A stretch of 64,000 nucleotides of DNA from Rugalucina vietnamica. Taxonomy: Eukaryota; Mollusca; Bivalvia; Lucinida; Lucinidae. The notes beneath the pieces are model-generated. The model saw nothing but the letters and a program-made list of their open reading frames with translations, made no database searches and had not been told where the DNA came from. Positions 3,432-64,000 of the stretch are shown here, one piece after another. The position numbers were made by a program, and so were the translations under genes. The stretch is from assembly GCA_964017185.1 (NCBI GenBank), contig OZ024869.1:59980761-60044760 (forward strand), given 5' to 3'. How positions within the stretch are numbered: the stretch's first letter is position 1; the number at the start of each line of letters is the position of its first letter.

Positions 3432-3433
<2 letters not shown>

Positions 3434-3785: not shown

Positions 3786-3790
3786 GTAGT

Positions 3791-4835: not shown

Positions 4836-4902
4836 TAACATCGTACTTGTAATACAGTATGAAAAATAATTTCCTATTCGTTACATTGAAGTCATAAGGT
4901 AA

Positions 4903-7262: not shown

Positions 7263-7305
7263 AGGACATAAAGGGGACGTAAAGGCCAATAAAGGACGAT
7301 AAATA
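7263..7305. repeat. short purine-rich tandem repeat
   Basis: Three to four imperfect copies of a 10-12-bp unit like GGACGTAAAGG, some 40 bp before the satellite begins. Confidence 0.6.
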
Positions 7306-7387
7306 AACACTAAAATAGATATAGATTTTAGAATTTACTGACCCTATGACATAAGCACTAACCCTTGCAGTTGTAACCTTTAAAGGC

Positions 7388-7471
7388 AACACGTTAACAT
7401 TAAGCATTGCAGTTGCAAGCGTTAGTGGCAACACGTTAAAACTAAGCGTTGCAGTTACAATCGTTAGTGTC
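7388..7471 (+). repeat. two representative full-length monomers (42 bp each)
   Basis: Units 7388-7429 and 7430-7471 both start AACACGTTAA and end in GTTAGTG(G/T)C. Each contains a dyad: an arm of the form CACTAAGCGTTGCA pairs, after a 2-bp spacer, with TGCAACCGTTAGTG at 26 of 30 positions in the consensus. The remaining 12 bp are a linker of the form TCAACACGTTAA. The following units have 39 bp (7472-7510), 32 bp (7511-7542) and 42 bp (7543-7584, 7585-7626). Confidence 0.95.
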
Positions 7472-8244
7472 AACATAACAGTAAGTGTAGCATTTGCTTA
7501 CGTTAATTTCAACACGTTAACACGTTGCAACCGTTTAATGTCAACATGTTAACACTTAGCATTGCAGTTGCAACCGTTAGTGTCAACATGTTTACACTAA
7601 GCGTTGCAGTTGCAACCGTTAATGACAACACGTTAACACTAAGCATTGCGGTTACAATGCGTTAAAACTAAGCGTTGTAGTTAAAACCGTTAATGACAAC
7701 ACGTAAACACTAAGCTTTACATTTGCAACCATTAAAACCATGTCAACACGTTAAAACTAATCTTTATAGTTATAACCGTTAATTGCAACACATTAGCACT
7801 AAGCATTGGATTTGCAACCGTTAATACCGTGGCAACACGTTAAAACTAAGCGTTGCAGTTAAAACCGTTAATGACAACACGTAAACACTAAGCTTTGCAT
7901 TTGCAACTATTAAAACCATGTCAACACGTTAAAACTAAGCGTTGTAGTTATAACCGTTAATTGCAACACGTTAGCACTAAACATTGGATTTGCAACCGTT
8001 AATACCGTGGCAACATGTTAAAACTAAGCGTTGCAGTTAAAACCATTAATGCCAACACGTAAACACTAAGCTTTGCATTTGCAACCGTTAAAACCGTGTC
8101 AACACGTTAAAACTAAGCGTTGTAGTTAAAACCGTTAATGGCAACACGTAAACACTAAGCTTTGCATTTGCAACCGTTAAAACAGTTGCAAACGTTAGTG
8201 TCAACATGTAAGCACTAACCGTTACAGTTGCAACCTTTAATGGC

Positions 8245-8271
8245 AACACGTTAACATTAAGCGTTAGTGGC
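8245..8271 (+). repeat. 27-bp short monomer lacking the palindrome centre
   Basis: AACACGTTAACATTAAGC is followed by GTTAGTGGC. Compared with the neighbouring 42-bp form it lacks 15 bp, the centre of the dyad (TTGCAGTTGCAACCG). The breakpoints lie at a CGTT word present on both sides, as expected for deletion across a hairpin with microhomology. The same short unit recurs at the same place in most blocks (for example near 9458, 12142, 13337 and 17030), so it arose once and was amplified with the block. Confidence 0.9.
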
Positions 8272-11200
8272 AACACGTTAAAGCTAGGCGTTGCAGTTGC
8301 AAACGTTAGTGTCAACATGTAAGCATTAACCGTTGCAGTTGCAACCTTTAAAGGCAACAAGTTAACATTAAGCATTGCAGATGCAAGCGTTAGTGGCACT
8401 AAGCATTGGATTTGCAACCGTTAATACCGTGGCAACATGTAAAAACTAAGCGTTGCAGTTAAAACCGTTAATGACAACACGTAAGCTGCTTTGCATTTGC
8501 AATCGTTAAAACCGTGTCAACACGTTGAAACTAAGCGTTGTAGTTAAAACCGTTAATGGCAACACGTAAACACTAAGCTTTGCATTTGCAACCGTCAAAA
8601 CAGTTGCAAACCTTAGTGTCAACATGGAAGCACTAACCGTTACAGTTGCAACCTTTAATGGCAACACGTTAACATTAAGCGTTAGTGGCAACACGTTAAA
8701 GCTAAGTGTTGCAGTTGCAAACGTTAGTGTTAACATGTAAGCACTAACCGTTGCAGTTGCAACCTTTAAAGGCAACACGTTAACATTAAGCATTGCAGTT
8801 GCAAGCGTTAGTGGCAACACGTTAAAACTAAGCGTTGCAGTTACAACCGTTAGTTTCAACATTACAGTAAGTGTAGTATTTGCTTACGTTAATTTCAACA
8901 CGTTAACACGTTGCAACCGTTTATGTCAACATGTTAACACATAGCATTGCAGTTGCAACCGTTAGTGTCAACATGTTTACACTAAGCGTTGCAGTTGCAA
9001 CCGTTAATTACAACACGTTAACACTAAGCATTGTGGTTACAATGCGTTAAAACTAAGCGTTGTAGTTAAAACCGTTAATGACAACACGTAAACACTAAGC
9101 TTTGCAGTTGCAACCATTAAAACCATGTCAACACGTTAAAACTAAGCGTTGTAGTTATAACCGTTAATTGCAACACGTTAGCACTAAGCATTGGATTTGC
9201 AACCGTTAATACCGTGGCAACATGTTAAAACTAAGCGTTGCAGTTAAAACCGTTAATGACAACACGTAAACACTAAGCTTTGCATTTGCAACCGTTAAAA
9301 CCATGTCAACACGTTAAAACTAAGCGTTGTAGTTAAAACCGTTAATGGCAACACGTAAACACTAAGCTTTGCATTTGCAACCGTCAAAACAGTTGCAAAC
9401 CTTAGTGTCAACATGGAAGCACTAACCGTTACTGTTGCAACCTTTAATGGCAACACGTTAACATTAAGCGTTAGTGGCAACACGTTAAAGCTAAGTGTTG
9501 CAGTTGCAAACGTTAGTGTCAACATGTAAGCACTAACCGTTACAGTTGCAACCTTTAATGGCAACACGTTAACATTAAGCGTTAGTGGCAACACGTTAAA
9601 GCTAAGCGTTGCAGTTGCAAACGTTAGTGTCAACATGTAAGCATTAACCGTTGCAGTTGCAACCTTTAAAGGCAACACGTTAACATTAAGCATTGCAGTT
9701 GCAAGCGTTAGTGGCAACACGTTAAAACTAAGCGTTGCAGTTACAACCGTTAGTGTCAACATTACAGTAAGTGTAGCATTCGTTTACGTTAATTTCAACA
9801 CGTTAACACGTTGCAACCGTTTATGTCAACATGTTAACACTTAGCAATGCAGTTGCAACCGTTAGTGTCAACATGTTTACACTAAGCGTTGCAGTTGCAA
9901 CCGTTAATGACAACACGTTAACACTAAGCATTGCGGTTACAATACGTTAAAACTAAGCGTTGTAGTTAAAACCGTTAATGACAACACGTAAACACTAAGC
10001 TTTGCATTTGCAACCATTAAAACCATGTCAACACGTTAAAACTAAGCGTTGTAGTTATAACCGTTAATTGCAACACATTAGCACTAAGCATTGGATTTGC
10101 AACCGTTAATACCGTGGCAACATGTTAAAACTAAGCGTTGCAGTTAAAACCGTTAATGACAACACGTAAACACTAAGCTTTGCATTTGCAACCGTTAAAA
10201 CAGTTGCAAACGTTAGTGTCAACATGTAAGCACTAACCGTTACAGTTGCAACCTCAAATGCAACACGTTAACATTAAGCGTTAGTGGCAACACGTTAAAG
10301 CTAAGCGTTGCAGTTGCAAACGTTAGTGTCAACATGTAAGCACTAACCGTTGCAGTTACAACCTTTAAAGGCAACACGTTAACATTAAGCATTGCAGTTG
10401 CAAGCGTTAGTGGCAACACGTTAAAACTAAGCGTTGCAGTTACAACCGTAAGTGTCAACATTATAACAGTAAGTGTAGCATTTGCTTACGTTAATTTCAA
10501 CACGTTAAAACGTTGCAACCGTTTATGTCAACATGTTAACACTTAGCATTGCAGTTGCAACCGTTAGTGTCAACATGTTTACACTAAGCGTTGCAGTTGC
10601 AACACGTTAACACTAAGCATTTCGGTTACAATGCGTTAAAACTAAGCGTTGCAGTTACAACCGTTATAACATTATAACAGTGTAGCATTTGCTAACGTTA
10701 ATTTCAACACGTTAACACGTTGCAACCGTTTATGTCAACACTTAGCATTGCAGTTGCAACCGTTAGTGTCAACATGTTTACACTAAGCGTTGCACTTGCA
10801 ACCGTTAATGACAACACGTAAACACTAAGCTTTGCATTTGCAACCATTAAAACCATGTCAGCACGTTAAAACTAAGCGTTGTAGTTATAACCGTTAATTG
10901 CAACACGTTAGCACTAAGCATTGGATTTGCAACCGTTAATACCGTGGCAACATGTTAAAACTAAGCGTTGCAGTTAAAACCGTTAATGACAACACGTAAA
11001 CACTAAGCTTTGCATTTGCAACCATTAAAACCGTGTCAACACGTTAAAACTAAGCGTTGTAGTTAAAACCGTTAATGGCAATACGTAAACACTAAGCTTT
11101 GCATTTGCAACCGTTAAAACAGTTGCAAACGTTAGTGTCAACATGTAAGCACTAACCGTTAGAGTTGCAACCTTTAATGGGAAGACGTTAACATTAAGCG

Positions 11201-14200
11201 TTAGTGGCAACACGTTAAAGCTAAGCGTTGCAGTTGCAAACGTTAGTGTCAACATGTAAGCACTAACCCTTGCCGTTGTAACCTTTAAAGGCAACACGTT
11301 AACATTAAGCATTGCAGTTGCAAGCGTTAGTGGCAACACGTTAAAACTAAGCGTTGCAGTTACAACCGTTAGTGTCAACATAACAGTAAGTGTAGCATTT
11401 GCTTACGTTAATTTCAACACGTTAACACGTTGCAACCGTTTAATGTCAACATGTTAACACTTAGCATTGCAGTTGCAACCGTTAGTGTCAACATGTTTAC
11501 ACTAAGCGTTGCAGTTGCAACCGTTAATGACAACACTAAGCATTGCGGTTACAATGCGTTAAAACTAAGCGTTGTAGTTAAAACCGTTAATGACAACACG
11601 TAAACACTAAGCTTTGCATTTGCAACCATTAAAACCATGTCAACACGTTAAAACTAAGCGTTGTAATTATTTGCAACACATTAGCACTAAGCATTGGATT
11701 TGCAACCGTTAATACCGTGGCAACACGTTAAAACTAAGCGTTGCAGTTAAAACCGTTAATGACAACACGTAAACACTAAGCTTTGCATTTGCAACTATTA
11801 AAACCATGTCAACACGTTAAAACTAAGCGTTGTAGTTATAACCGTTAATTGCAACACGTTAGCACTAAGCATTGGATTTGCAACCGTTAATACCGTGGCA
11901 ACATGTTAAAACTAAGCGTTGCAGTTAAAACCGTTAATGCCAACACGTAAACACTAAGCTTTGCATTTGCAACCGTTAAAACCGTGTCAACACGTTAAAA
12001 CTAAGCGTTGTAGTTAAAACCGTTAATGGCAACACGTAAACACTAAGCTTTGCATTTGCAACCGTTAAAACAGTTGCAAACGTTAGTGTCAACATGTAAG
12101 CACTAACCGTTACAGTTGCGACCTTTAATGGCAACACGTTAACATTAAGCGTTAGTGGCAACACGTTAAAGCTAGGCGTTGCAGTTGCAAACGTTAGTGT
12201 CAACATTTAAGCATTAACCGTTGCAGTTGCAACCTTTAAAGGCAACACGTTAACATTAAGCATTGCAGTTGCAAGCGTTAGTGGCACTAAGCATTGGATT
12301 TGCAACCGTTAATACCGTGGCAACATGTAAAAACTAAGCGTTGCAGTTAAAACCGTTAATGACAACACGTAAGCTGCTTTGCATTTGCAACCGTTAAAAC
12401 CGTTTCAACACGATGAAACTAAGCGTTGTAGTTAAAACCGTTAATGGCAACACGTAAACACTAAGCTTTGCATTTGCAACCGTCAAAACAGTTGCAAACG
12501 TTAGTGTCAACATGGAAGCACTAACCGTTACAGTTGCAACCTTTAATTGCAACACGTTAACATTAAGCGTTAGTGGCAACACGTTAAAGCTAAGTGTTGC
12601 AGTTGCAAACGTTAGTGTTAACATGTAAGCACTAACCATTGCAGTTGCAACCTTTAAAGGCAACACGTTAACATTAAGCATTGCAGTTGCAAGCGTTAGT
12701 GGCAACACGTTAAAACTAAGCGTTGCAGTTACAACCGTTAGTTTCAACATTACAGTAAGTGTAGCATTTGCTTACGTTAATTTCAACACGTTAACACGTT
12801 GCAACCGTTTATGTCAACATGTTAACACTTAGCATTGCAGTTGCAACCATTAGTGTCAACATGTTTACACTAAGCTTTGCAGTTGCAACCGTTAATTACA
12901 ACACGTTAACACTAAGCATTGCGGTTACAATGCGTTAAAACTAAGCGTTGTAGTTAAAACCGTTAATGACAACACGTAAACACTAAGCTTTGCAGTTGCA
13001 ACCATTAAAACCATGTCAACACGTTAAAACTAAGCGTTGTAGTTATAACCGTTAATTGCAACACGTTAGCACTAAGCATTGGATTTGCAACCGTTAATAC
13101 CGTGGCAACATGTTAAAACTAAGCGTTGCAGTTAAAACCGTTAATGACAACACGTAAACACTAAGCTTTGCATTTGCAACCGTTAAAACCGTGTCAACAC
13201 GTTAAAACTAAGCGTTGTAGTTAAAACCGTTAATGGCAACACGTAAACACTAAGCTTTGCATTTGCAACCGTTAAAACAGTTGCAAACGTTAGTGTCAAC
13301 ATGTAAGCACTAACCGTTACAGTTGCAACCTTTAATGGCAACACGTTAACATTAAGCGTTAGTGGCAACACGTTAAAGCTAAGCGTTGTAGTTGCAAACG
13401 TTAGTGTCAACATGTAAGCATTAACCGTTGCAGTTGCAACCTTTAAAGGCAACACGTTAACATTAAGCATTGCAGTTGCAAGCGTTAGTGGCAACACGTT
13501 AAAACTAAGCGTTGCAGTTACAACCGTTAGTGTCAACATTACAGTAAGTGTAGCATTCGTTTACGTTAATTTCAACACGTTAACACGTTGCAACCGTTTA
13601 TGTCAACATGTTAACACTTAGCATTGCAGTTGCAACCGTTAGTGTCAACATGTTTACACTAAGCGTTGCAGTTGCAACCGTTAATGACAACACGTAAACA
13701 CTAAGCATTGCGGTTACAATGCGTTAAAACTAAGCGTTGTAGTTAAAACCGTTAATGACAACACGTAAACACTAAGCTTTGCATTTGCAACCATTAAAAC
13801 CATGTCAACACGTTAAAACTAAGCGTTGTAGTTATAACCGTTAATTGCAACACATTAGCACTAAGCATTGGATTTGCAACATGTTAAAACTAAGCGTTGC
13901 AGTTAAAACCGTTAATGACAACACGTAAACACTAAGCTTTGCATTTGCAACCGTTAAAACAGTTGCAAACGTTAGTGTCAACATGTAAGCACTAACCGTT
14001 ACAGTTGCAACCTTAAATGCAACACGTTAACATTAAGCGTTAGTGGCAACACGTTAAAGCTAAGCGTTGCAGTTGCAAACGTTAGTGTCAACATGTAAGC
14101 ACTAACCGTTGCAGTTACAACCTTTAAAGGCAACACGTTAACATTAAGCATTGCAGTTGCAAGCGTTAGTGGCAACACGTTAAAACTAAGCGTTGCAGTT

Positions 14201-17200
14201 ACAACCGTAAGTGTCAACATTATAACAGTAAGTGTAGCATTTGCTTACGTTAATTTCAACACGTTAAAACGTTGCAACCGTTTATGTCAACATGTTAACA
14301 CTTAGCATTGCAGTTGCAACCGTTAGTGTCAACATGTTTACACTAAGCGTTGCAGTTGCAACACGTTAACACTAAGCATTTCGGTTACAATGCGTTAAAA
14401 CTTAGCGTTGCAGTTACAACCGTTATAACATTATAACAGTGTAGCATTTGCTTACGTTAATTTCAACACGTTAACACGTTGCAACCGTTTATGTCAACAC
14501 TTAGCATTGCAGTTGCAACCGTTAGTGTCAACATGTTTACACTAAGCGTTGCAGTTGCAACCGTTAATGACAACACGTAAACACTAAGCTTTGCATTGGC
14601 AACCATTAAAACCATGTCAACACGTTAAAACTAAGCGTTGTAGTTATAACCGTTAATTGCAACACGTTAGCACTAAGCATTGGATTTGCAACCGTTAATA
14701 CCGTGGCAACATGTTAAAACTAAGCGTTGCAGTTAAAACCGTTAATGGCAATACGTAAACACTAAGCTTTGCATTTGCAACCGTTAAAACAGTTGCAAAC
14801 GTTAGTGTCAACATGTAAGCACTAACCGTTAGAGTTGCAACCTTTAATGGGAAGACGTTAACATTAAGCTTTAGTGGCAACACGTTAAAGCTAAGCGTTG
14901 CAGTTGCAAACGTTAGTGTCAACATGTAAGCACTAACCCTTGCAGTTGTAACCTTGAAAGGCAACACGTTAACATTAAGCATTGCAGTTGCAAGCGTTAG
15001 TGGCAACACGTTAAAACTAAGCGTTGCAGTTACAACCGTTAGTGTCAACATAACAGTAAGTGTAGCATTTGCTTACGTTAATTTCAACACGTTTACACGT
15101 TGCAACCGTTTAATTTCAACATGTTAACACTTAGCATTGCAGTTGCAACCGTTAGTGTCAACATGTTTACACTAAGCGTTGCAGTTGCAACCGTTAATGA
15201 CAACACGTTAACACTAAGCATTGCGGTTACAATGCGTTAAAACTAAGCGTTGTAGTTAAAACTGTTAATGACAACACGTAAACACTAAGCTTTGCATTTG
15301 CAACCATTAAAACCATGTCAACGCGTTAAAACTAAGCGTTGTAGTTATAACCGTTAATTGCAACACATTATAACCGTGCATTGGATTTGCAACCGTTAAT
15401 ACCGTGGCAACACGTTAAAACTAAGCGTTGCAGTTAAAACCGTTAATGACAACACGTAAACACTAAGCTTTGCATTTGCAACTATTAAAACCATGTCAAC
15501 ACGTTAAAACTAAGCGTTGTAGTTATAACCGTTAATTGCAACACGCTAGCACTAAGCATTGGATTTGCAACCGTTAATACCGTGGCAACATGTTAAAACT
15601 AAGCGTTGCAGTTAAAACTGTTAATGCCAACACGTAAACACTAAGCTTTGCATTTGCAACCGTTAAAACCGTGTCAACACGTTAAAACTAAGCGTTGTAG
15701 TTAAAACCGTTAATGGCAACACGTAAACACTAAGCTTTGCATTTGCAACCGTTAAAACAGTTGCAAACGTTAGTGTCAACATGAAAGCACTAACCGTTAC
15801 AGTTGCAACCTTTAATGGCAACACGTTAACATTAAGCGTTAGTGGCAACACGTTAAAGCTAGGCGTTGCAGTTGCAAACGTTAGTGTCAACATGTAAGCA
15901 TTAACCGTTGCAGTTGCAACCTTTAAAGGCAACACGTTAACATTAAGCATTGCAGTTGCAAGCGTTAGTGGCACTAAGCATTGGATTTGCAACCGTTAAT
16001 ACCGTGGCAACATGTAAAAACTAAGCGTTGCAGTTAAAACCGTTAATGACAACACGTAAGCTGCTTTGCATTTGCAACCGTTAAAACCGTGTCAACACGT
16101 TGAAACTAAGCGTTGTAGTTAAAACCGTTAATGGCAACACGTAAACACTAAGCTTTGCATTTGCAACCGTCAAAACAGTTGCAAACGTTAGTGTCAACAT
16201 GGAAGCACTAACAGTTACAGTTGCAACCTTTAATGGCAACACGTTAACATTAAGCGTTAGTGGCAACACGTTAAAGCTAAGCGTTGCAGTTGCAAACGTT
16301 AGTGTCAACATGTAAGCATTAACCGTTGCAGTTGCAACCTTTAAAGGCAACACGTTAACATTAAGCATTGCAGTTGCAAGCGTTAGTGGCAACACGTTAA
16401 AACTAAGCGTTGCAGTTACAACCGTTAGTTTCAACATTACAGTAAGTGTAGCATTTGCTTACGTTAATTTCAACACGTTAACACGTTGCAACCGTTTATG
16501 TCAACATGTTAACACTTAGCATTGCAGTTGCAACCATTAATGTCAACATGTTTACACTAAGCGTTGCAGTTGCAACCGTTAATTACAACACGTTAACACT
16601 AAGCATTGCGGTTGCAATGCTTTAAAACTAAGCGTTGTAGTTAAAACCGTAAATGACAACACGTAAACACTAAGCTTTGCAGTTGCAACCATTAAAACCA
16701 TGTCAACACGTTAAAACTAAGCGTTGTAGTTATAACCGTTAATTGCAACACGTTAGCACTAAGCATTGGATTTGCAACCGTTAATACCGTGGCAACATGT
16801 TAAAACTAAGCGTTGCAGTTAAAACCGTAAATGACAACACGTAAACACTAAGCTTTGCATTTGCAACCGTTAAAACCGTGTCAACACGTTAAAACTAAGC
16901 GTTGTAGTTAAAACCTTAAATGGCAACACGTAAACACTAAGCTTTGCATTTGCAACCGTTAAAACAGTTGCAAACGTTAGTGTCAACATGTAAGCACTAA
17001 CCGTTACAGTTGCAACCTTTAATGGCAACACGTTAACATTAAGCGTTAGTGGCAACACGTTAAAGCTAAGCGTTGCAGTTGCAAACGTTAGTGTCAACAT
17101 GTAAGCATTAACCGTTGCAGTTGCAACCTTTAAAGGCAACACGTTAACATTAAGCATTGCAGTTGCAAGCGTTAGTGGCAACACGTTAAAACTAAGCGTT

Positions 17201-23200: not shown

Positions 23201-23870
23201 AACATTAAGCGTTAGTGGCAACACGTTAAAGCTAAGCGTTGCAGTTGCAAACGTTAGTGTCAACATGTAAGCATTAACCGTTGCAGTTGCAACCTTTAAA
23301 GGCAACACGTTAACATTAAGCATTGCAGTTGCAAGCGTTAGTGGCAACACGTTAAAACTAAGCGTTGCAGTTACAACCGTTAGTGTCAACATTACAGTAA
23401 GTGTAGCATTCGTTTACGTTAATTTCAACACGTTAACACGTTGCAACCGTTTATGTCAACATGTTAACACTTAGCATTGCAGTTGCAACCGTTAGTGTCA
23501 ACATGTTTACACTAAGCGTTGCAGTTGCAACCGTTAATGACAACACGTTAACACTAAGCATTGCGGTTACAATGCGTTAAAACTAAGCGTTGTAGTTAAA
23601 ACCGTAGTATGACAACACGTAAACACTAAGCTTTGCATTTGCAACCATTAAAACCATGTCAACACGTTAAAACTAAGCGTTGTAGTTATAACCGTTAATT
23701 GCAACACATTAGCACTAAGCATTGGATTTGCAACCGTTAATACCGTGGCAACACGTTAAAACTAAGCGTTGCAGTTAAAACCGTTAATGACAACACGTAA
23801 ACACTAAGCTTTGCATTTGCAACCGTTAAAACAGTTGCAAACGTTAGTGTCAACATGTAAGCACTAACCG

Positions 23871-50700: not shown

Positions 50701-51314
50701 CGTTAAAACTAAGCGTTGTAGTTAAAACCGTTAATGACAACACGTAAACACGTTAAAGCTAAGCGTTGCAGTTGCAAACGTTAGTGTCAACATGTAAGCA
50801 TTAACCGTTGCAGTTGCAACCTTTAAAGGCAACACGTTAACATTAAGCATTGCAGTTGCAAGCGTTAGTGGCAACACGTTAAAACTAAGCGTTGCAGTTA
50901 CAACCGTTAGTGTCAACATTACAGTAAGTGTAGCATTCGTTTACGTTAATTTCAACACGTTAACACGTTGCAACCGTTTATGTCAACATGTTAACACTTA
51001 GCATTGCAGTTGCAACCATTAGTGTCAACATGTTTACACTAAGCGTTGCAGTTGCAACCGTTAATTACAACACGTTAACACTAAGCATTGCGGTTACAAT
51101 GCGTTAAAACTAAGCGTTGTAGTTAAAACCGTTAATGACAACACGTAAACACTAAGCTTTGCAGTTGCAACCATTAAAACCATGTCAACACGTTAAAACT
51201 AAGCGTTGTAGTTATAACCGTTAATTGCAACACGTTAGCATTAAGCATTGGATTTGCAACCGTTAAGACCGTGGCAACACGTTAAAACTAAGCGTTGCAG
51301 TTAAAACCGTTAAT
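44713..51314. repeat. satellite sub-region with a 4.3-4.5-kb repeat relation
   Basis: Landmarks at 43419, 44143 and 45317 recur at 47927, 48651 and 49825 (offset 4,508). A distinctive block at 46013-46240 recurs at 50291-50518 (offset 4,278), the difference reflecting gain or loss of monomers. The copies are more diverged than the 6,773-bp and 1,679-bp series. Confidence 0.75.
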
Positions 51315-54300
51315 GACAATACGTAAACACTAAGCTTTGCATTTGCAACCGTTAAAACAGTTGCAAACGTTAGTGTCAACATGTAAGCACTAACCGTTAC
51401 AGTTGCAACCTTAAATGCAACACGTTAACATTAAGCGTTAGTGGCAACACGTTAAAGCTAAGCGTTGCAGTTGCAAACGTTAGTGTCAACATGTAAGCAC
51501 TAACCGTTGCAGTTACAACCTTTAAAGGCAACACGTTAACATTAAGCATTGCAGTTGCAAGCGTTAGTGGCAACACGTTAAAACTAAGCGTTGCAGTTAC
51601 AACCGTAAGTGTCAACATTATAACAGTAAGTGTAGCATTTGCTTACGTTAATTTCAACACGTTAAAACGTTGCAACCGTTTATGTCAACATGTTAACACT
51701 TAGCATTGCAGTTGCAACCGTTAGTGTCAACATGTTTACACTAAGCGTTGCAGTTGCAACACGTTAACACTAAGCATTTCGGTTACAATGCGTTAAAACT
51801 AAGCGTTGCAGTTACAACCGTTATAACATTATAACAGTGTAGCATTTGCTTACGTTAATTTCAACACGTTAACACGTTGCAACCGTTTATGTCAACACTT
51901 AGCATTGCAGTTGCAACCGTTAGTGTCAACATGTTTACACTAAGCGTTGCAGTTGCAACCGTTAATAACAACACGTAAACACTAAGCTTTGCATTTGCAA
52001 CCATTAAAACCATGTCAACACGTTAAAACTAAGCGTTGTAGTTATAACCGTTAATTGCAACACGTTAGCACTAAGCATTGGATTTGCAACCGTTAATACC
52101 GTGGCAACATGTTAAAACTAAGCGTTGCAGTTAAAACCGTTAATGACAACACGTAAACACTAAGCTTTGCATTTGCAACCATTAAAACCGTGTCAACACG
52201 TTAAAACTAAGCGTTGTAGTTAAAACCGTTAATGGCAATACGTAAACACTAAGCTTTGCATTTGCAACCGTTAAAACAGTTGCAAACGTTAGTGTCAACA
52301 TGTAAGCACTAACCGTTACAGTTGCAACCTTTAATGGCAACACGTTAACATTAAGCGTTAGTGGCAACACGTTAAAGCTAAGCGTTGCAGTTGCAAACGT
52401 TAGTGTCAACATGTAAGCACTAACCCTTGCAGTTGTAACCTTTAAAGGCAACACGTTAACATTAAGCATTGCAGTTGCAAGCGTTAGTGGCAACACGTTA
52501 AAACTAAGCGTTGCAGTTACAACCGTTAGTGTCAACATAACAGTAAGTGTAGCATTTGCTTACGTTAATTTCAACACGTTAACACGTTGCAACCGTTTAA
52601 TGTCAACATGTTAACACTTAGCATTGCAGTTGCAACCGTTAGTGTCAACATGTTTACACTAAGCGTTGCAGTTGCAACCGTTAATGACAACACGTTAACA
52701 CTAAGCATTGCGGTTACAATGCGTTAAAACTAAGCGTTGTAGTTAAAACCGTTAATGACAACACGTAAACACTAAGCAACCATTAAAACCATGTCAACAC
52801 GTTAAAACTAAGCGTTGTAGTTATAACCGTTAATTGCAACACGTTAGCACTAAGCATTGGATTTGCAACCGTTAATACCGTGGCAACATGTTAAAACTAA
52901 GCGTTGCAGTTAAAACCGTTAATGACAACACGTAAACACTAAGCTTTGCATTTGCAACCATTAAAACCGTGTCAACACGTTGCAACATGTAAAAACTAAG
53001 CGTTGCAGTTAAAACCGTTAATGACAACACGTAAGCTGCTTTGCATTTGCAATCGTTAAAACCGTGTCAACATGTTGAAACTAAGCGTTGTAGTTAAAAC
53101 CGTTAATGGCAACACGTAAACACTAAGGATTGCATTTGCAACCGTCAAAACAGTTGCAAACGTTAGTGTCAACATGGAAGCACTAACCGTTACAGTTGCA
53201 ACCTTTAATGGCAACACGTTAACATTAAGCGTTAGTGGCAACACGTTAAAGCTAACCGTTGCAGTTGCAACCTTTAAAGGCAACACGTTAACATTAAGCA
53301 TTGCAGTTGCAAGCGTTAGTGGCAACACGTTAAAACTAAGCGTTGCAGTTACAACCGTTAGTGTCAACATTACAGTAAGTGTAGCATTCGTTTACGTTAA
53401 TTTCAACACGTTAACACGTTGCAACCGTTTATGTCAACATGTTAACACTTAGCATTGCAGTTGCAACCATTAGTGTCAACATGTTTACACTAAGCGTTGC
53501 AGTTGCAACCGTTAATTACAACACGTTAACACATTGCGGTTACAATGCGTTAAAACTAAGCGTTGTAGTTAAAACCGTTAATGACAACACGTAAACACTA
53601 AGCTTTGCAGTTGCAACCATTAAAACCATGTCAACACGTTAAAACTAAGCGTTGTAGTTATAACCGTTAATTGCAACACGTTAGCACTAAGCATTGGATT
53701 TGCAACCGTTAAGACCGTGGCAACATGTTAAAACTAAGCGTTGCAGTTAAAACCGTTAATGACAACACGTAAACACTAAGCTTTGCATTTGCAACCGTTA
53801 AAACCGTGTCAACACGTTAAAACTAAGCGTTGTAGTTATAACCGTTAATTGCAACACGTTAGCACTAAGCATTGGATTTGCAACCGTTAAGACCGTGGCA
53901 ACATGTTAAAACTAAGCGTTGCAGTTAAAACCGTTAATGGCAACACGTAAACACTAAGCTTTGCATTTGCAACCGTTAAAACAGTTGCAAACGTTAGTGT
54001 CAACATGTAAGCACTAACCGTTACAGTTGCAACCTTTAATGGCAACACGTTAACATTAAGCGTTAGTGGCAACACGTTAAAGCTAAGCGTTGCAGTTGCA
54101 AACGTTAGTGTCAACATGTAAGCATTAACCGTTGCAGTTGCAACCTTTAAAGGCAACACGTTAACATTAAGCATTGCAGTTGCAAGCGTTAGTGGCAACA
54201 CGTTAAAGCTAAGCGTTGCAGTTACAACCGTTAGTGTCAACATTACAGTAAGTGTAGCATTCGTTTACGTTAATTTCAACACGTTAACACGTTGCAACCG

Positions 54301-55723
54301 TTTATGTCAACATGTTAACACTTAGCATTGCAGTTGCAACCGTTAGTGTCAACATGTTTACACTAAGCGTTGCAGTTGCAACCGTTAATGACAACACGTT
54401 AACACTAAGCATTGCGGTTACAATGCGTTAAAACTAAGCGTTGTAGTTAAAACCGTTAATGACAACACGTAAACACTAAGCTTTGCAGTTGCAACCATTA
54501 AAACCATGTCAACACGTTAAAACTAAGCGTTGTAGTTATAACCGTTAATTGCAACACGTTAGCATTAAGCATTGGATTTGCAACCGTTAAGACCGTGGCA
54601 ACATGTTAAAACTAAGCGTTGCAGTTAAAACCGTTAATGACAACACGTAAACACTAAGCTTTGCATTTGCAACCGTTAAAACCGTGTCAACACGTTAAAA
54701 CTAAGCGTTGTAGTTATAACCGTTAATTGCAACACGTTAGCACTAAGCATTGGATTTGCAACCGTTAAGACCGTGGCAACATGTTAAAACTAAGCGTTGC
54801 AGTTAAAACCGTTAATGGCAACACGTAAACACTAAGCTTTGCATTTGCAACCGTTAAAACAGTTGCAAACGTTAGTGTCAACATGTAAGCACTAACCGTT
54901 ACAGTTGCAACCTTTAATGGCAACACGTTAACATTAAGCGTTAGTGGCAACACGTTAAAGCTAAGCGTTGCAGTTGCAAACGTTAGTGTCAACATGTAAG
55001 CATTAACCGTTGCAGTTGCAACCTTTAAAGGCAACACGTTAACATTAAGCATTGCAGTTGCAAGCGTTAGTGGCAACACGTTAAAACTAAGCGTTGCAGT
55101 TACAACCGTTAGTGTCAACATTACAGTAAGTGTAGCATTCGTTTACGTTAATTTCAACACGTTAACACGTTGCAACCGTTTATGTCAACATGTTAACACT
55201 TAGCATTGCAGTTGCAACCGTTAGTGTCAACATGTTTACACTAAGCGTTGCAGTTGCAACCGTTAATGACAACACGTTAACACTAAGCATTGCGGTTACA
55301 ATGCGTTAAAACTAAGCGTTGTAGTTAAAACCGTTAATGACAACACGTAAACACTAAGCTTTGCAGTTGCAACCATTAAAACCATGTCAACACGTTAAAA
55401 CTAAGCGTTGTAGTTATAACCGTTAATTGCAACACGTTAGCATTAAGCATTGGATTTGCAACCGTTAAGACCGTGGCAACATGTTAAAACTAAGCATTGC
55501 GGTTACAATGCGTTAAAACTAAGCGTTGTAGTTAAAACCGTTAATGACAACACGTAAACACTAAGCTTTGCATTTGCAACCATTAAAACCATGTCAACAC
55601 GTTAAAACTAAGCGTTGTAGTTATAACCGTTAATTGCAACACATTAGCACTAAGCATTGGATTTGCAACCGTTAATACCGTGGCAACACGTTAAAACTAA
55701 GCGTTGCAGTTAAAACCGTTAAT
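51315..55723. repeat. 4,409-bp higher-order repeat, copy 1
   Basis: Phase is set at the marker GACAATACGTAAACAC. Landmarks at 51397, 52182, 53056, 53887 and 54765 recur 4,409 bp later. An internal duplication of 878 bp (blocks at 53887 and 54765) lies in the second half. Confidence 0.9.
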
Positions 55724-58700
55724 GACAATACGTAAACACTAAGCTTTGCATTTGCAACCGTTAAAACAGTTGCAAACGTTAGTGTCAACATGTAAGCACT
55801 AACCGTTACAGTTGCAACCTTAAATGCAACACGTTAACATTAAGCGTTAGTGGCAACACGTTAAAGCTAAGCGTTGCAGTTGCAAACGTTAGTGTCAACA
55901 TGTAAGCACTAACCGTTGCAGTTACAACCTTTAAAGGCAACACGTTAACATTAAGCATTGCAGTTGCAAGCGTTAGTGGCAACACGTTAAAACTAAGCGT
56001 TGCAGTTACAACCGTAAGTGTCAACATTATAACAGTAAGTGTAGCATTTGCTTACGTTAATTTCAACACGTTAAAACGTTGCAACCGTTTATGTCAACAT
56101 GTTAACACTTAGCATTGCAGTTGCAACCGTTAGTGTCAACATGTTTACACTAAGCGTTGCAGTTGCAACACGTTAACACTAAGCATTTCGGTTACAATGC
56201 GTTAAAACTAAGCGTTGCAGTTACAACCGTTATAACATTATAACAGTGTAGCATTTGCTTACGTTAATTTCAACACGTTAACACGTTGCAACCGTTTATG
56301 TCAACACTTAGCATTGCAGTTGCAACCGTTAGTGTCAACTTGTTTACACTAAGCGTTGCAGTTGCAACCGTTAATGACAACACGTAAACACTAAGCTTTG
56401 CATTTGCAACCATTAAAACCATGTCAACACGTTAAAACTAAGCGTTGTAGTTATAACCGTTAATTGCAACACGTTAGCACTAAGCATTGGATTTGCAACC
56501 GTTAATACCGTGGCAACATGTTAAAACTAAGCGTTGCAGTTAAAACCGTTAATGACAACACGTAAACACTAAGCTTTGCATTTGCAACCATTAAAACCGT
56601 GTCAACACGTTTAAACTAAGCGTTGTAGTTAAAACCGTTAATGGCAATACGTAAACACTAAGCTTTGCATTTGCAACCGTTAAAACAGTTGCAAACGTTA
56701 GTGTCAACATGTAAGCACTAACCGTTACAGTTGCAACCTTTAATGGCAACACGTTAACATTAAGCGTTAGTGGCAACACGTTAAAGCTAAGCGTTGCAGT
56801 TGCAAACGTTAGTGTCAACATGTAAGCACTAACCCTTGCAGTTGTAACCTTTAAAGGCAACACGTTAACATTAAGCATTGCAGTTGCAAGCGTTAGTGGC
56901 AACACGTTAAAACTAAGCGTTGCAGTTACAACCGTTAGTGTCAACATAACAGTAAGTGTAGCATTTGCTTACGTTAATTTCAACACGTTAACACGTTGCA
57001 ACCGTTTAATGTCAACATGTTAACACTTAGCATTGCAGTTGCAACCGTTAGTGTCAACATGTTTACACTAAGCGTTGCAGTTGCAACCGTTAATGACAAC
57101 ACGTTAACACTAAGCATTGCGGTTACAATGCGTTAAAACTAAGCGTTGTAGTTAAAACCGTTAATGACAACACGTAAACACTAAGCAACCATTAAAACCA
57201 TGTCAACACGTTAAAACTAAGCGTTGTAGTTATAACCGTTAATTGCAACACGTTAGCACTAAGCATTGGATTTGCAACCGTTAATACCGTGGCAACATGT
57301 TAAAACTAAGCGTTGCAGTTAAAACCGTTAATGACAACACGTAAACACTAAGCTTTGCATTTGCAACCATTAAAACCGTGTCAACACGTTGCAACATGTA
57401 AAAACTAAGCGTTGCAGTTAAAACCGTTAATGACAACACGTAAGCTGCTTTGCATTTGCAATCGTTAAAACCGTGTCAACATGTTGAAACTAAGCGTTGT
57501 AGTTAAAACCGTTAATGGCAACACGTAAACACTAAGGATTGCATTTGCAACCGTCAAAACAGTTGCAAACGTTAGTGTCAACATGGAAGCACTAACCGTT
57601 ACAGTTGCAACCTTTAATGGCAACACGTTAACATTAAGCGTTAGTGGCAACACGTTAAAGCTAACCGTTGCAGTTGCAACCTTTAAAGGCAACACGTTAA
57701 CATTAAGCATTGCAGTTGCAAGCGTTAGTGGCAACACGTTAAAACTAAGCGTTGCAGTTACAACCGTTAGTGTCAACATTACAGTAAGTGTAGCATTCGT
57801 TTACGTTAATTTCAACACGTTAACACGTTGCAACCGTTTATGTCAACATGTTAACACTTAGCATTGCAGTTGCAACCATTAGTGTCAACATGTTTACACT
57901 AAGCGTTGCAGTTGCAACCGTTAATTACAACACGTTAACACATTGCGGTTACAATGCGTTAAAACTAAGCGTTGTAGTTAAAACCGTTAATGACAACACG
58001 TAAACACTAAGCTTTGCAGTTGCAACCATTAAAACCATGTCAACACGTTAAAACTAAGCGTTGTAGTTATAACCGTTAATTGCAACACGTTAGCACTAAG
58101 CATTGGATTTGCAACCGTTAAGACCGTGGCAACATGTTAAAACTAAGCGTTGCAGTTAAAACCGTTAATGACAACACGTAAACACTAAGCTTTGCATTTG
58201 CAACCGTTAAAACCGTGTCAACACGTTAAAACTAAGCGTTGTAGTTATAACCGTTAATTGCAACACGTTAGCACTAAGCATTGGATTTGCAACCGTTAAG
58301 ACCGTGGCAACATGTTAAAACTAAGCGTTGCAGTTAAAACCGTTAATGGCAACACGTAAACACTAAGCTTTGCATTTGCAACCGTTAAAACAGTTGCAAA
58401 CGTTAGTGTCAACATGTAAGCACTAACCGTTACAGTTGCAACCTTTAATGGCAACACGTTAACATTAAGCGTTAGTGGCAACACGTTAAAGCTAAGCGTT
58501 GCAGTTGCAAACGTTAGTGTCAACATGTAAGCATTAACCGTTGCAGTTGCAACCTTTAAAGGCAACACGTTAACATTAAGCATTGCAGTTGCAAGCGTTA
58601 GTGGCAACACGTTAAAGCTAAGCGTTGCAGTTACAACCGTTAGTGTCAACATTACAGTAAGTGTAGCATTCGTTTACGTTAATTTCAACACGTTAACACG

Positions 58701-60132
58701 TTGCAACCGTTTATGTCAACATGTTAACACTTAGCATTGCAGTTGCAACCGTTAGTGTCAACATGTTTACACTAAGCGTTGCAGTTGCAACCGTTAATGA
58801 CAACACGTTAACACTAAGCATTGCGGTTACAATGCGTTAAAACTAAGCGTTGTAGTTAAAACCGTTAATGACAACACGTAAACACTAAGCTTTGCAGTTG
58901 CAACCATTAAAACCATGTCAACACGTTAAAACTAAGCGTTGTAGTTATAACCGTTAATTGCAACACGTTAGCATTAAGCATTGGATTTGCAACCGTTAAG
59001 ACCGTGGCAACATGTTAAAACTAAGCGTTGCAGTTAAAACCGTTAATGACAACACGTAAACACTAAGCTTTGCATTTGCAACCGTTAAAACCGTGTCAAC
59101 ACGTTAAAACTAAGCGTTGTAGTTATAACCGTTAATTGCAACACGTTAGCACTAAGCATTGGATTTGCAACCGTTAAGACCGTGGCAACATGTTAAAACT
59201 AAGCGTTGCAGTTAAAACCGTTAATGGCAACACGTAAACACTAAGCTTTGCATTTGCAACCGTTAAAACAGTTGCAAACGTTAGTGTCAACATGTAAGCA
59301 CTAACCGTTACAGTTGCAACCTTTAATGGCAACACGTTAACATTAAGCGTTAGTGGCAACACGTTAAAGCTAAGCGTTGCAGTTGCAAACGTTAGTGTCA
59401 ACATGTAAGCATTAACCGTTGCAGTTGCAACCTTTAAAGGCAACACGTTAACATTAAGCATTGCAGTTGCAAGCGTTAGTGGCAACACGTTAAAACTAAG
59501 CGTTGCAGTTACAACCGTTAGTGTCAACATTACAGTAAGTGTAGCATTCGTTTACGTTAATTTCAACACGTTAACACGTTGCAACCGTTTATGTCAACAT
59601 GTTAACACTTAGCATTGCAGTTGCAACCGTTAGTGTCAACATGTTTACACTAAGCGTTGCAGTTGCAACCGTTAATGACAACACGTTAACACTAAGCATT
59701 GCGGTTACAATGCGTTAAAACTAAGCGTTGTAGTTAAAACCGTTAATGACAACACGTAAACACTAAGCTTTGCAGTTGCAACCATTAAAACCATGTCAAC
59801 ACGTTAAAACTAAGCGTTGTAGTTATAACCGTTAATTGCAACACGTTAGCATTAAGCATTGGATTTGCAACCGTTAAGACCGTGGCAACATGTTAAAACT
59901 AAGCATTGCGGTTACAATGCGTTAAAACTAAGCGTTGTAGTTAAAACCGTTAATGACAACACGTAAACACTAAGCTTTGCATTTGCAACCATTAAAACCA
60001 TGTCAACACGTTAAAACTAAGCGTTGTAGTTATAACCGTTAATTGCAACACATTAGCACTAAGCATTGGATTTGCAACCGTTAATACCGTGGCAACACGT
60101 TAAAACTAAGCGTTGCAGTTAAAACCGTTAAT
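55724..60132. repeat. 4,409-bp higher-order repeat, copy 2
   Basis: Same length and order as copy 1. It shares variants with copy 3 that copy 1 lacks (TCAACTTGTTTAC near 56334, CACGTTTAAACTAAGC near 56607), so copies 2 and 3 separated more recently. Confidence 0.9.
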
Positions 60133-63100
60133 GACAATACGTAAACACTAAGCTTTGCATTTGCAACCGTTAAAACAGTTGCAAACGTTAGTGTCAACAT
60201 GTAAGCACTAACCGTTACAGTTGCAACCTTAAATGCAACACGTTAACATTAAGCGTTAGTGGCAACACGTTAAAGCTAAGCGTTGCAGTTGCAAACGTTA
60301 GTGTCAACATGTAAGCACTAACCGTTGCAGTTACAACCTTTAAAGGCAACACGTTAACATTAAGCATTGCAGTTGCAAGCGTTAGTGGCAACACGTTAAA
60401 ACTAAGCGTTGCAGTTACAACCGTAAGTGTCAACATTATAACAGTAAGTGTAGCATTTGCTTACGTTAATTTCAACACGTTAAAACGTTGCAACCGTTTA
60501 TGTCAACATGTTAACACTTAGCATTGCAGTTGCAACCGTTAGTGTCAACATGTTTACACTAAGCGTTGCAGTTGCAACACGTTAACACTAAGCATTTCGG
60601 TTACAATGCGTTAAAACTAAGCGTTGCAGTTACAACCGTTATAACATTATAACAGTGTAGCATTTGCTTACGTTAATTTCAACACGTTAACACGTTGCAA
60701 CCGTTTATGTCAACACTTAGCATTGCAGTTGCAACCGTTAGTGTCAACTTGTTTACACTAAGCGTTGCAGTTGCAACCGTTAATGACAACACGTAAACAC
60801 TAAGCTTTGCATTTGCAACCATTAAAACCATGTCAACACGTTAAAACTAAGCGTTGTAGTTATAACCGTTAATTGCAACACGTTAGCACTAAGCATTGGA
60901 TTTGCAACCGTTAATACCGTGGCAACATGTTAAAACTAAGCGTTGCAGTTAAAACCGTTAATGACAACACGTAAACACTAAGCTTTGCATTTGCAACCAT
61001 TAAAACCGTGTCAACACGTTTAAACTAAGCGTTGTAGTTAAAACCGTTAATGGCAATACGTAAACACTAAGCTTTGCATTTGCAACCGTTAAAACAGTTG
61101 CAAACGTTAGTGTCAACATGTAAGCACTAACCGTTACAGTTGCAACCTTTAATGGCAACACGTTAACATTAAGCGTTAGTGGCAACACGTTAAAGCTAAG
61201 CGTTGCAGTTGCAAACGTTAGTGTCAACATGTAAGCACTAACCCTTGCAGTTGTAACCTTTAAAGGCAACACGTTAACATTAAGCATTGCAGTTGCAAGC
61301 GTTAGTGGCAACACGTTAAAACTAAGCGTTGCAGTTACAACCGTTAGTGTCAACATAACAGTAAGTGTAGCATTTGCTTACGTTAATTTCAACACGTTAA
61401 CACGTTGCAACCGTTTAATGTCAACATGTTAACACTTAGCATTGCAGTTGCAACCGTTAGTGTCAACATGTTTACACTAAGCGTTGCAGTTGCAACCGTT
61501 AATGACAACACGTTAACACTAAGCATTGCGGTTACAATGCGTTAAAACTAAGCGTTGTAGTTAAAACCGTTAATGACAACACGTAAACACTAAGCAACCA
61601 TTAAAACCATGTCAACACGTTAAAACTAAGCGTTGTAGTTATAACCGTTAATTGCAACACGTTAGCACTAAGCATTGGATTTGCAACCGTTAATACCGTG
61701 GCAACATGTTAAAACTAAGCGTTGCAGTTAAAACCGTTAATGACAACACGTAAACACTAAGCTTTGCATTTGCAACCATTAAAACCGTGTCAACACGTTG
61801 CAACATGTAAAAACTAAGCGTTGCAGTTAAAACCGTTAATGACAACACGTAAGCTGCTTTGCATTTGCAATCGTTAAAACCGTGTCAACATGTTGAAACT
61901 AAGCGTTGTAGTTAAAACCGTTAATGGCAACACGTAAACACTAAGGATTGCATTTGCAACCGTCAAAACAGTTGCAAACGTTAGTGTCAACATGGAAGCA
62001 CTAACCGTTACAGTTGCAACCTTTAATGGCAACACGTTAACATTAAGCGTTAGTGGCAACACGTTAAAGCTAAGCGTTGCAGTTGCAAACGTTAGTGTCA
62101 ACATGTAAGCATTAACCGTTGCAGTTGCAACCTTTAAAGGCAACACGTTAACATTAAGCATTGCAGTTGCAAGCGTTAGTGGCAACACGTTAAAACTAAG
62201 CGTTGCAGTTACAACCGTTAGTGTCAACATTACAGTAAGTGTAGCATTCGTTTACGTTAATTTCAACACGTTAACACGTTGCAACCGTTTATGTCAACAT
62301 GTTAACACTTAGCATTGCAGTTGCAACCATTAGTGTCAACATGTTTACACTAAGCGTTGCAGTTGCAACCGTTAATTACAACACGTTAACACTAAGCATT
62401 GCGGTTACAATGCGTTAAAACTAAGCGTTGTAGTTAAAACCGTTAATGACAACACGTAAACACTAAGCTTTGCAGTTGCAACCATTAAAACCATCTCAAC
62501 ACGTTAAAACTAAGCGTTGTAGTTATAACCGTTAATTGCAACACGTTAGCACTAAGCATTGGATTTGCAACCGTTAAGACCGTGGCAACATGTTAAAACT
62601 AAGCGTTGCAGTTAAAACCGTTAATGACAACACGTAAACACTAAGCTTTGCATTTGCAACCGTTAAAACCGTGTCAACACGTTAAAACTAAGCGTTGTAG
62701 TTATAACCGTTAATTGCAACACGTTAGCACTAAGCATTGGATTTGCAACCGTTAAGACCGTGGCAACATGTTAAAACTAAGCGTTGCAGTTAAAACCGTT
62801 AATGGCAACACGTAAACACTAAGCTTTGCATTTGCAACCGTTAAAACAGTTGCAAACGTTAGTGTCAACATGTAAGCACTAACCGTTACAGTTGCAACCT
62901 TTAATGGCAACACGTTAACATTAAGCGTTAGTGGCAACACGTTAAAGCTAAGCGTTGCAGTTGCAAACGTTAGTGTCAACATGTAAGCATTAACCGTTGC
63001 AGTTGCAACCTTTAAAGGCAACACGTTAACATTAAGCATTGCAGTTGCAAGCGTTAGTGGCAACACGTTAAAACTAAGCGTTGCAGTTACAACCGTTAGT

Positions 63101-63710
63101 GTCAACATTACAGTAAGTGTAGCATTCGTTTACGTTAATTTCAACACGTTAACACGTTGCAACCGTTTATGTCAACATGTTAACACTTAGCATTGCAGTT
63201 GCAACCGTTAGTGTCAACATGTTTACACTAAGCGTTGCAGTTGCAACCGTTAATGACAACACGTTAACACTAAGCATTGCGGTTACAATGCGTTAAAACT
63301 AAGCGTTGTAGTTAAAACCGTTAATGACAACACGTAAACACTAAGCTTTGCAGTTGCAACCATTAAAACCATGTCAACACGTTAAAACTAAGCGTTGTAG
63401 TTATAACCGTTAATTGCAACACGTTAGCATTAAGCATTGGATTTGCAACCGTTAAGACCGTGGCAACATGTTAAAACTAAGCATTGCGGTTACAATGCGT
63501 TAAAACTAAGCGTTGTAGTTAAAACCGTTAATGACAACACGTAAACACTAAGCTTTGCATTTGCAACCATTAAAACCATGTCAACACGTTAAAACTAAGC
63601 GTTGTAGTTATAACCGTTAATTGCAACACATTAGCACTAAGCATTGGATTTGCAACCGTTAATACCGTGGCAACACGTTAAAACTAAGCGTTGCAGTTAA
63701 AACCGTTAAT
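60133..63710. repeat. 4,409-bp higher-order repeat, copy 3 (shortened to 3,578 bp)
   Basis: Relative to copy 2 it has one extra 42-bp monomer (near 62070) and an extra 5 bp (ACACTAAGCATTGC in place of ACACATTGC near 62390), and lacks one 878-bp block. The net change of -831 bp accounts exactly for 3,578 bp. Confidence 0.88.
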
Positions 63711-64000
63711 GACAATACGTAAACACTAAGCTTTGCATTTGCAACCGTTAAAACAGTTGCAAACGTTAGTGTCAACATGTAAGCACTAACCGTTACAGTT
63801 GCAACCTTAAATGCAACACGTTAACATTAAGCGTTAGTGGCAACACGTTAAAGCTAAGCGTTGCAGTTGCAAACGTTAGTGTCAACATGTAAGCACTAAC
63901 CGTTGCAGTTACAACCTTTAAAGGCAACACGTTAACATTAAGCATTGCAGTTGCAAGCGTTAGTGGCAACACGTTAAAACTAAGCGTTGCAGTTACAACC
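63711..64000. repeat. 4,409-bp higher-order repeat, copy 4 (cut by the window end)
   Basis: Begins with the same GACAATACG marker and continues collinear with 51315, 55724 and 60133 until the window ends, so the series carries on beyond it. Confidence 0.85.

Follow-up and report, generated by a model that had tools for sequence, protein, structure and literature searches.

How an array built from one short monomer comes to carry several long periods side by side, and what such an array does in its genome, are the questions raised by the 64,000-bp stretch analysed here (the window), which lies on contig C1 of the 1.09-Gb genome of the bivalve Rugalucina vietnamica. Its features are collected in Table 1. 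The nested repeat levels proposed in the sequence-only reading are confirmed by k-mer spacing and autocorrelation, by identities at lag and by decomposition into monomers, and the period spectrum obtained from k-mer spacing and autocorrelation has peaks at 42, 89, 178, 789, 878, 1,679, 4,409 and 6,773 bp.

Table 1. Features of the window (coordinates count from its first nucleotide).
Feature	Coordinates	Strand	Remarks
Transposon island within satellite	1..7346	.	Terminal inverted repeats of 105 bp; TAAG as apparent target duplication (4 bp)
Second element nested in the island	374..5212	.	Terminal inverted repeats of ~529 bp, the right one interrupted; TACTT at either side
Satellite array, 42-bp monomer	7347..64000	+	Non-coding; runs on past the right end of the window
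Level-3 unit, 3,759 bp	10467..14225	+	From 209-bp FJIUV marker to next marker
Canonical 789-bp higher-order repeat block	12753..13541	+	20 monomers (FJIKLABEDABARSCNHCGM)
Level-3 unit, 3,705 bp	14226..17930	+	
Level-3 unit, 3,664 bp	17931..21594	+	
6,773-bp period span	20554..37640	+	~2.5 copies; edges good to ~60 bp
1,679-bp period span	41274..45077	+	Shortened level-3 units, ~2.3 copies
4,409-bp period span	51065..62095	+	Lengthened level-3 units, ~2.5 copies

Decomposition from position 7,301 with a 42-bp consensus yields 1,402 pieces, the first two of which precede the start of the array; 616 of the 1,402 are exactly 42 bp long. The monomer itself resembles three copies of a 14-bp unit, a level absent from those listed in the sequence-only reading. 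This sub-repeat rests on a gapped comparison of the thirds (0 of 1,000 shuffles as good), because the ungapped lag-14 test of the consensus does not exceed the shuffle maximum. The monomers are arranged in a fixed order repeated in tandem, the canonical higher-order repeat (HOR), and this order and its variants are found throughout the array. Monomer types recur within the canonical unit (A three times, B and C twice each), as in cascading HORs. Mean divergence between the top 20 monomer classes is 33% (range 9.5–56%) and 2.1% within a class, in keeping with the HOR thresholds given in the available part of PMC11630843 (20–40% among the monomers of a unit, <5% between corresponding monomers across units). 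As for coding capacity, the window holds only two closed stop-to-stop frames of at least 130 codons (139 and 162), each lying within repeats on the minus strand; an RNA gene was likewise rejected, with no Rfam match at the gathering threshold and 0 ARAGORN predictions in positions 1–12,000. The repeat has no match in the prokaryote contigs searched, and in viral contigs a 19-mer of it gave 4 single matches and a 25-mer 0. Six probe strings had no occurrence in the literature text searched.

At each of the long lags, ungapped identity is 0.99–1.000 in most 1-kb blocks, with an all-lag median match of 0.26; the high-identity regions extend over 20.6–37.6 kb (lag 6,773), 41.3–45.1 kb (lag 1,679) and 51.1–62.1 kb (lag 4,409). 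These periods had been described as unrelated, a description that must be abandoned, as all of them rearrange one module order around the common FJIUV marker. The 6,773-bp period is the sum of 2,921 and 3,852 bp, that is, two level-3 units paired. Its first two copies differ by 13 substitutions over 6,773 bp, while the third nominal copy shows 102 and 94 substitutions in comparisons whose span overruns the end of the period near 37.6 kb, and a 418-bp duplication is present in two of the three copies. Marker-to-marker alignment of the 1,679-bp copies leaves 2 mismatches in 1,679 positions, and 3 substitutions over 4,409 bp separate the first 4,409-bp copy from the second. A further tandem level of 20,159 bp, which had escaped the sequence-only reading, lies just to the right of the window. 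The 6,773-, 4,409-, 1,679- and 20,159-bp periods are best explained by local further amplification of the super-unit of ~3.7–3.8 kb.

The array had also been read as one unbroken whole, starting at position 7,346, with an older left edge. Its continuity holds inside the window; its start does not, since the satellite resumes on the far side of the transposon island, where 5.8 kb of it lie left of the window. The island starts at C1:59,980,497, ~264 bp before the window, and its left end bears an additional short foldback; the nested element is missing from the island's mirror copy at C1:60.683 Mb. A low-stringency comparison between the transposon flank and the satellite array found no match. 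On C1, a 1.33-kb TTAGGG-bearing tandem repeat adjoins the satellite. Because position 7,346 is a transposon boundary rather than an array edge, the greater age of the left edge is not supported as written. Comparisons of neighbouring units give a patchy age pattern with no gradient: differences amount to 1.1–1.9% in three comparisons starting at 10.5–17.9 kb, 0.85–2.3% in five starting at 42.7–48.9 kb, and 0.07% between copies one and two of the 4,409-bp period.

In the genome at large, a rare 20-mer of the satellite (all 30 places) and a second 20-mer probe (all 89 places) each form one cluster of less than 0.75 Mb on every contig matched, with none on C18–C47. Pooled probe lists place the satellite on at least 16 of the contigs C1–C17, C10 being without a hit among the matches listed. 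For the commoner probes, 100 of the 3,720 places of an anchor 24-mer and 100 of 1,213 places of another were listed, and 40 of 2,262 candidates scored; a minor second cluster may therefore have gone unnoticed, and one major locus per chromosome describes the two complete lists and the matches listed elsewhere. Of the ten contigs checked for length, nine have their cluster well away from the ends; the clusters near a contig end are those of C12 (2.3–2.6 Mb) and C15 (46.4 of 46.8 Mb). One cluster per contig in two complete lists suggests centromeres, and, judged from position only, the array would act as centromeric or pericentromeric DNA, with turnover of its sequence tolerated because kinetochore identity is epigenetic. 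A rather unlikely alternative takes the satellite for heterochromatin of an ordinary sort (pericentromeric, subtelomeric or other) instead of the centromere proper, and the (TTAGGG)12–18 tracts of the neighbouring 1.33-kb repeat and the C12 and C15 clusters close to contig ends lend it some weight; a subtelomeric repeat, however, should turn up at the two ends of many chromosomes, whereas in the two complete lists a single cluster per contig lies, for the most part, distant from the ends.

The organisation seen in the window extends to other chromosomes, since the FJIUV/WYX marker was present in seven of eight samples from other contigs, and all eight contained the 1,386-bp block or a closely similar version of it. 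Blocks from the same chromosome do not group together: 5 of 30 level-3 blocks have a block of their own chromosome as nearest neighbour, and mean distances are 0.027 within chromosomes (52 pairs) and 0.031 between them (383 pairs).

Repeated unequal exchange at several scales, as the sequence-only reading supposed, is supported by indels in monomer register and by homology-gated simulations. Large indels between neighbouring units keep the monomer register in 29 of 50 cases, where ~6 would be expected, and are out of register in the other 21. Under homology-gated exchange, HORs and several long periods appeared together in 103 of 153 runs over eight settings, a set that left out the geom60 settings with stricter thresholds, and 115 of the 153 attained the fraction of the array that long periods occupy in the window, with several settings overshooting the observed HOR signal. 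Random-breakpoint size mixtures were rejected, producing both features in 1 of 200 runs (ten settings) and the long-period share in none of 200. Another 160 random-breakpoint runs also failed. Scored for the HOR signal and for as many long periods as observed, a mean of 5 gave 40/40 and 0/40, a mean of 20 gave 0/40 and 2/40, mean-60 sizes gave 2/40 and 25/40, and log-uniform sizes gave 0/40 and 22/40; the observed long-period share was reached in 1 of these 160 runs. These models are few and stationary, with a homology threshold of the author's choice, and a first simulation (64 runs, 4 per setting) was exploratory. Arrays would enlarge or shrink through unequal exchange needing local homology, by sister-chromatid exchange or break-induced replication; given that need, exchanges would tend to keep the monomer or HOR register and to copy whole modules. 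The satellite is probably a new HOR satellite, centromere-linked as judged from position, whose arrays have grown through homology-dependent unequal exchange.

Rolling-circle copying of excised repeat circles, with reinsertion, could instead have given rise to the long periods and carried the super-unit from one chromosome to another. The level-3 blocks of nine contigs do form a star-like radiation from a near-consensus copy, without chromosome grouping, as a burst would give; but the many-sized in-register indels between neighbours and the low copy number of each long period (~2.5) fit stepwise exchange at least as well, and we regard the circle model as unlikely.

Nine of 16 contigs carry the satellite in both strand orientations, in some cases by single hits (C7, C15), and strand flips could be read inside continuous, N-free satellite at C2:48.8068 Mb and C13:17.1560 Mb. 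Strand runs measure ~90–260 kb between sparse hits. A strand-switch shuffle gave a mean of 54.8 switches against 19 observed, a weak test because the hits lie in tandem copies, and one into which part of the listed hits of C1, C2 and C9 and none from the list of the 3,720-place probe were entered. At the C2 inversion point there is a degenerate monomer, and the C2 and C13 sites, the two compared, join different monomers. Mis-joined or duplicated haplotype contigs would be a quite improbable source of the inverted arms or of the long near-identical periods. Such artefacts could account for the near-identity of the first two 4,409-bp copies and for the two C1 arms, which are separated by a 200-base N gap and have outer flanks that are inverted near-copies (97.7–99.4%), as allelic contigs would also show. 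The window, however, contains no N, the C2 and C13 flips are gap-free, and the long-period copies bear private differences and module changes such as the 418-bp duplication. Moreover, the outer flank has three copies of at least 99% identity on C1, in two orientations (among 40 candidates scored), a pattern for which a two-haplotype error alone is insufficient; ~70 kb out, the C1 mirror stretches no longer match at length, as judged from a 3-kb piece on the mirror side.

Selection on DNA hairpins or on a protein-binding site in each monomer is highly improbable as the force keeping the repeat: the imperfect dyad of the consensus, CACTAAGCGTTGCA-GT-TGCAACCGTTAATG, beat letter shuffles in one test (fraction 0.0145) and a one-letter variant ending in TTAGTG beat dinucleotide shuffles (19/2,000 as good), but the window lacks an exact copy of that variant, the consensus dyad itself is borderline against dinucleotide shuffles (112/2,000), all 22 monomer classes tested fall within shuffles (lowest fraction 0.06) and the folding of a 789-bp block does not surpass that of its shuffles (z 0.51, 14/20 as good). 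With such mixed results a hairpin function is not convincing, and the dyad is at most a decayed ancestral one.

The alpha-satellite monomer measures ~171 bp, unlike the 42-bp monomer found here, and the minimal CENP-B box motif was found 0 times on either strand of the window. A second departure from alpha satellite is that the sampled blocks lack chromosome-specific grouping and that at least two further tandem levels stand above the HOR. The likeness lies in the divergence pattern and in monomer reuse, as the available parts of the sources describe cascading HORs in primate alpha satellite with monomers 20–40% apart within a unit, <5% between copies, and types reused (PMC11630843, PMC12428378). 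Layers of recent amplification and large inversions, both seen in the present satellite, are also described for some primate arrays in the accessible text of PMC11062924. Macro-dyads in Tribolium beetles, according to PMC13081366, reach 75 kb; in them a putative (peri)centromeric satellite forms subarrays of opposite orientation on many chromosomes, and the inversion sites are reported to be conserved. By layout alone, our satellite is similar, with long subarrays in opposite orientation on many chromosomes and the degenerate monomer at the C2 inversion point; its strand runs, however, are longer than those macro-dyads and its two compared inversion sites differ. A further trait of Tribolium-type arrays is that a major and a minor satellite intermingle. 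HOR organisation outside primates is shared with the pericentromeric satellites of Chrysolina carnifex, whose HORs are dimers and trimers rather than units of 20 monomers, and for which the part of PMC8122249 at hand mentions no higher levels. As far as the available sources extend, the satellites of bivalves and other invertebrates are likewise non-coding tandem repeats, often near transposons.

On the best reading, the kind of satellite is known, and this one stands out as a notable variant by its depth of nesting, its inverted arms and the lack of chromosome specificity. The arms are of interest since PMC13081366 names Tribolium as the only documented case of satellite macro-dyads. Tentatively, the locus may represent a new centromere architecture outside Tribolium, in which one short satellite, nested to a depth of six or more tandem levels (14 bp, 42 bp, 789 bp, 3.7 kb, 4.4–6.8 kb and 20 kb), is exchanged freely among non-homologous centromeres and forms strand-inverted arms of ~90–260 kb on more than half of the chromosomes. 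Present at apparently one place on nearly every chromosome, the satellite is likely to be centromere DNA. HOR theory has been built largely on alpha satellite, and a far shorter monomer here behaves alike, with more levels and without chromosome-specific grouping. The recent steps of amplification are still legible at 99.8–99.9% identity, making the array a good natural record of array growth; together with the homology-gated and random-breakpoint simulations tried, the satellite makes a specific claim about how such arrays grow testable.

Window positions 7,347–64,000 are occupied by one single satellite, in which no long reading frame was found; the window contains no N bases. Cyclic alignment divides the array into 1,402 pieces with the consensus monomer CACTAAGCGTTGCAGTTGCAACCGTTAATGGCAACACGTTAA. 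This 42-bp monomer looks like three diverged copies of ~14 bp, because its thirds align with one another at a score of 19, which none of 1,000 dinucleotide shuffles reached (9.5, s.d. 1.8), and shortened monomers of 27–29 bp in the array fit the loss of one such copy. Monomer classes, defined by edit-distance grouping and given capital letters, are on average 33% apart (top 20 classes), against 2.1% within a class. Written in class letters, the array is a succession of FJIKLABEDABARSCNHCGM units, a higher-order repeat (HOR) of 20 monomers and 789 bp; variants differ by the gain or loss of 89-bp A-B/E-D pairs, 111-bp C-N-H groups or still longer blocks.

The sequence-only reading gave the lengths of the longer periods correctly; its description of them as unrelated is not borne out. 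The long units share one framing signature, comprising a block ending in monomer T, the 209-bp five-monomer marker FJIUV, and then WYX, a few of the copies being incomplete. From the marker-to-marker spacings, the 6,773-bp period is read as a sum (2,921 + 3,852 bp), 4,409 bp as an enlarged unit, and 1,679 bp as a shortened one. In the left part of the array and on other chromosomes the canonical block order is 702-209-708-1,386-789, or ~3,794 bp as summed block lengths. A 4,409-like unit is also found ~160 kb further right on C1, the contig holding the window. A still longer recurrence of 20,159 bp is seen among HOR anchors from C1:60,051,090 rightward (16 of 16 in the span, and three more at 20,166 bp), a level covering a 41-kb stretch with about two copies. 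On contig C9, one 20-mer recurs every 1–7 kb, often 3–4 kb, suggesting recent amplification there too, of units about as long as the marker-to-marker ones.

Features of the window and of contig C1, with related coordinates
Feature	Position	Description
Nested element	window 374–5,212	4.84 kb; between two TACTT copies; ~529-bp terminal inverted repeats
Break in its right arm	window near 3,786–4,899	interrupted by other sequence
Element-free TACTT site	window 25–122 and 345–373/5,213–5,286	second copy of the insertion site, 320 bp upstream, from local duplication
Inverted repeat	window 3,790–3,940	74 bp with 91% complementarity and a 3-bp loop; resembles a small foldback element
tRNA-like stretch	window 6,868–6,937	T runs follow; scores 18.8 bits against Rfam tRNA (gathering 29); may be a SINE head
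Marker spacings 1–8 (bp)		3,759; 3,705; 3,664; 2,921; 3,852; 2,921; 3,852; 2,503
Marker spacings 9–16 (bp)		5,047; 1,679; 1,174; 1,401; 1,933; 2,746; 4,409; 4,409; then the last, cut unit
Incomplete marker	window near 50,052	excluded as unit boundary
Mirror copy of island	C1:60.6835–60.6863 Mb	pieces 99.1–100% identical
Satellite, minus strand	C1:59.941–59.954 Mb	
Satellite, plus strand	C1:59.975 to beyond 60.241 Mb	one further plus match at 60.583 Mb
Satellite, minus strand	C1:~60.587–60.761 Mb	
1.33-kb tandem repeat	C1:60,300,001–60,310,000 (sampled stretch L018)	adjoins the satellite; also in sampled stretches L036 and L037; 200-base N gap inside repeat
6-bp repeat	C1:60.530 Mb (sampled stretch L038)	resembles TTAGGG tracts of the 1.33-kb repeat
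Outer flank copies	C1:59,475,794; 59,965,761; 60,768,333	
Recurrent 20-mer	C9:37,559,791–37,639,432	

Divergence between neighbouring units is 1.1–1.9% in three comparisons starting at 10.5–17.9 kb and 0.85–2.3% in five starting at 42.7–48.9 kb. It is 0.12% in the comparison ending in the 1,679-bp unit and 0.07% between copies one and two of the 4,409-bp period. Copies one and two of the 6,773-bp period show 13 differences in 6,773; the two unlike halves of that unit are 1.7–1.8% apart. Singletons, monomers with an exact sequence found a single time, account for 20% in the first 4-kb bin, 0–2% in the bins at 23.3–35.3 and 51.3–63.3 kb, and 16.5% at 47.3–51.3 kb. Recency is therefore patchy along the array.

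The earlier suggestion of an older left edge fails. The satellite occupies C1:59,974,710 to ~59,980,497, is followed by a transposon island filling window positions 1–7,346, and then resumes. The island is bounded by terminal inverted repeats of 105 bp, is flanked by TAAG on either side, and carries an additional short foldback at its left end. Because satellite lies to its left and it carries terminal repeats, the junction at 7,346 is a transposon end and uninformative on the age of the array margin. The nested element that interrupts the island is missing from its mirror copy.

Among 50 indels of at least 20 bp between neighbouring units, 29 fall within 2 bp of the 42-bp register against ~6 expected, a count in which one event in repeated units is scored each time and 21 indels are out of register. 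Simulated exchange with random breakpoints produced an HOR or several long periods, and hardly ever both. Both features appeared in 103 of 153 runs when local similarity was required at the exchange point; these runs often overshoot the observed HOR signal. Homology-dependent unequal exchange is shown to be sufficient within this simple model, and in nature it is likely rather than proven. The nested satellite array was soundly recognised from sequence, and exchange at several scales is a good general inference given the in-register indels and the similarity-gated simulations.

Samples of 7.7–10 kb were taken from each of eight other contigs (C4, C5, C11 and C13–C17). All eight contain either the 1,386-bp block or a close variant, and seven contain the FJIUV/WYX marker, which is absent from the C14 sample and incomplete at its start in those of C4 and C15. 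Thirty 1.2-kb pieces of the 1,386-bp block have a mean distance of 0.027 within and 0.031 between chromosomes, and the nearest neighbour lies on the same chromosome for five of them.

On C1, the outer ends of the arms have a common monomer order for ~3.9 kb and a common flank. This flank has three copies at ≥99% identity, in both orientations and all on C1 among the 40 scored of 1,515 candidates; they represent a segmental duplication around the satellite. Further out, no long match was found between C1 at 59.90 Mb and its mirror counterpart at 60.83 Mb. The last two arms are separated by a 1.33-kb tandem repeat with (TTAGGG)12–18, an N gap and other DNA. Nine of the 16 satellite contigs carry the repeat on both strands, with single matches as the evidence for C7 and C15. 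On C2 (48,806,824) and C13 (17,155,957) the satellite switches straight from plus to minus within a stretch free of N, at different monomers. Satellite macro-dyads are described as documented solely in Tribolium (PMC13081366). Large inversions are also reported for certain primate alpha-satellite arrays (PMC11062924), so inversion within a satellite is not in itself unique.

The assembly comprises 1.09 Gb in 47 contigs, and the window corresponds to C1:59,980,761–60,044,760. An anchor 24-mer occurring about once per HOR has 3,720 exact copies genome-wide, and its reversed control has none; scaling this count by a 173-kb sample gives ~4.2 Mb of satellite. Two rarer 20-mers, with complete lists of 30 and 89 places, form one cluster of <0.75 Mb on each contig matched. 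Pooled with the listed matches of commoner probes, they place the satellite on 16 of contigs C1–C17, all but C10, whose silence is no evidence of absence because the probes were picked from sampled loci. The widest cluster among the listed matches is 0.82 Mb, on C1. Of the ten satellite contigs with known length, all but C15 (46.4 of 46.8 Mb) have an interior cluster; the C12 cluster lies at 2.3–2.6 Mb.

Six probe strings of the repeat had no match in the literature searched, and the on-topic results of a search for nested HORs were primate work. Insect HORs are known, with units of two or three monomers (PMC8122249), whereas the HOR here has 20. A single locus per chromosome would be the behaviour of a centromeric or pericentromeric satellite, and the R. 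vietnamica repeat is filed as a variant of HOR centromeric satellites, its putative centromeric role being judged from position.
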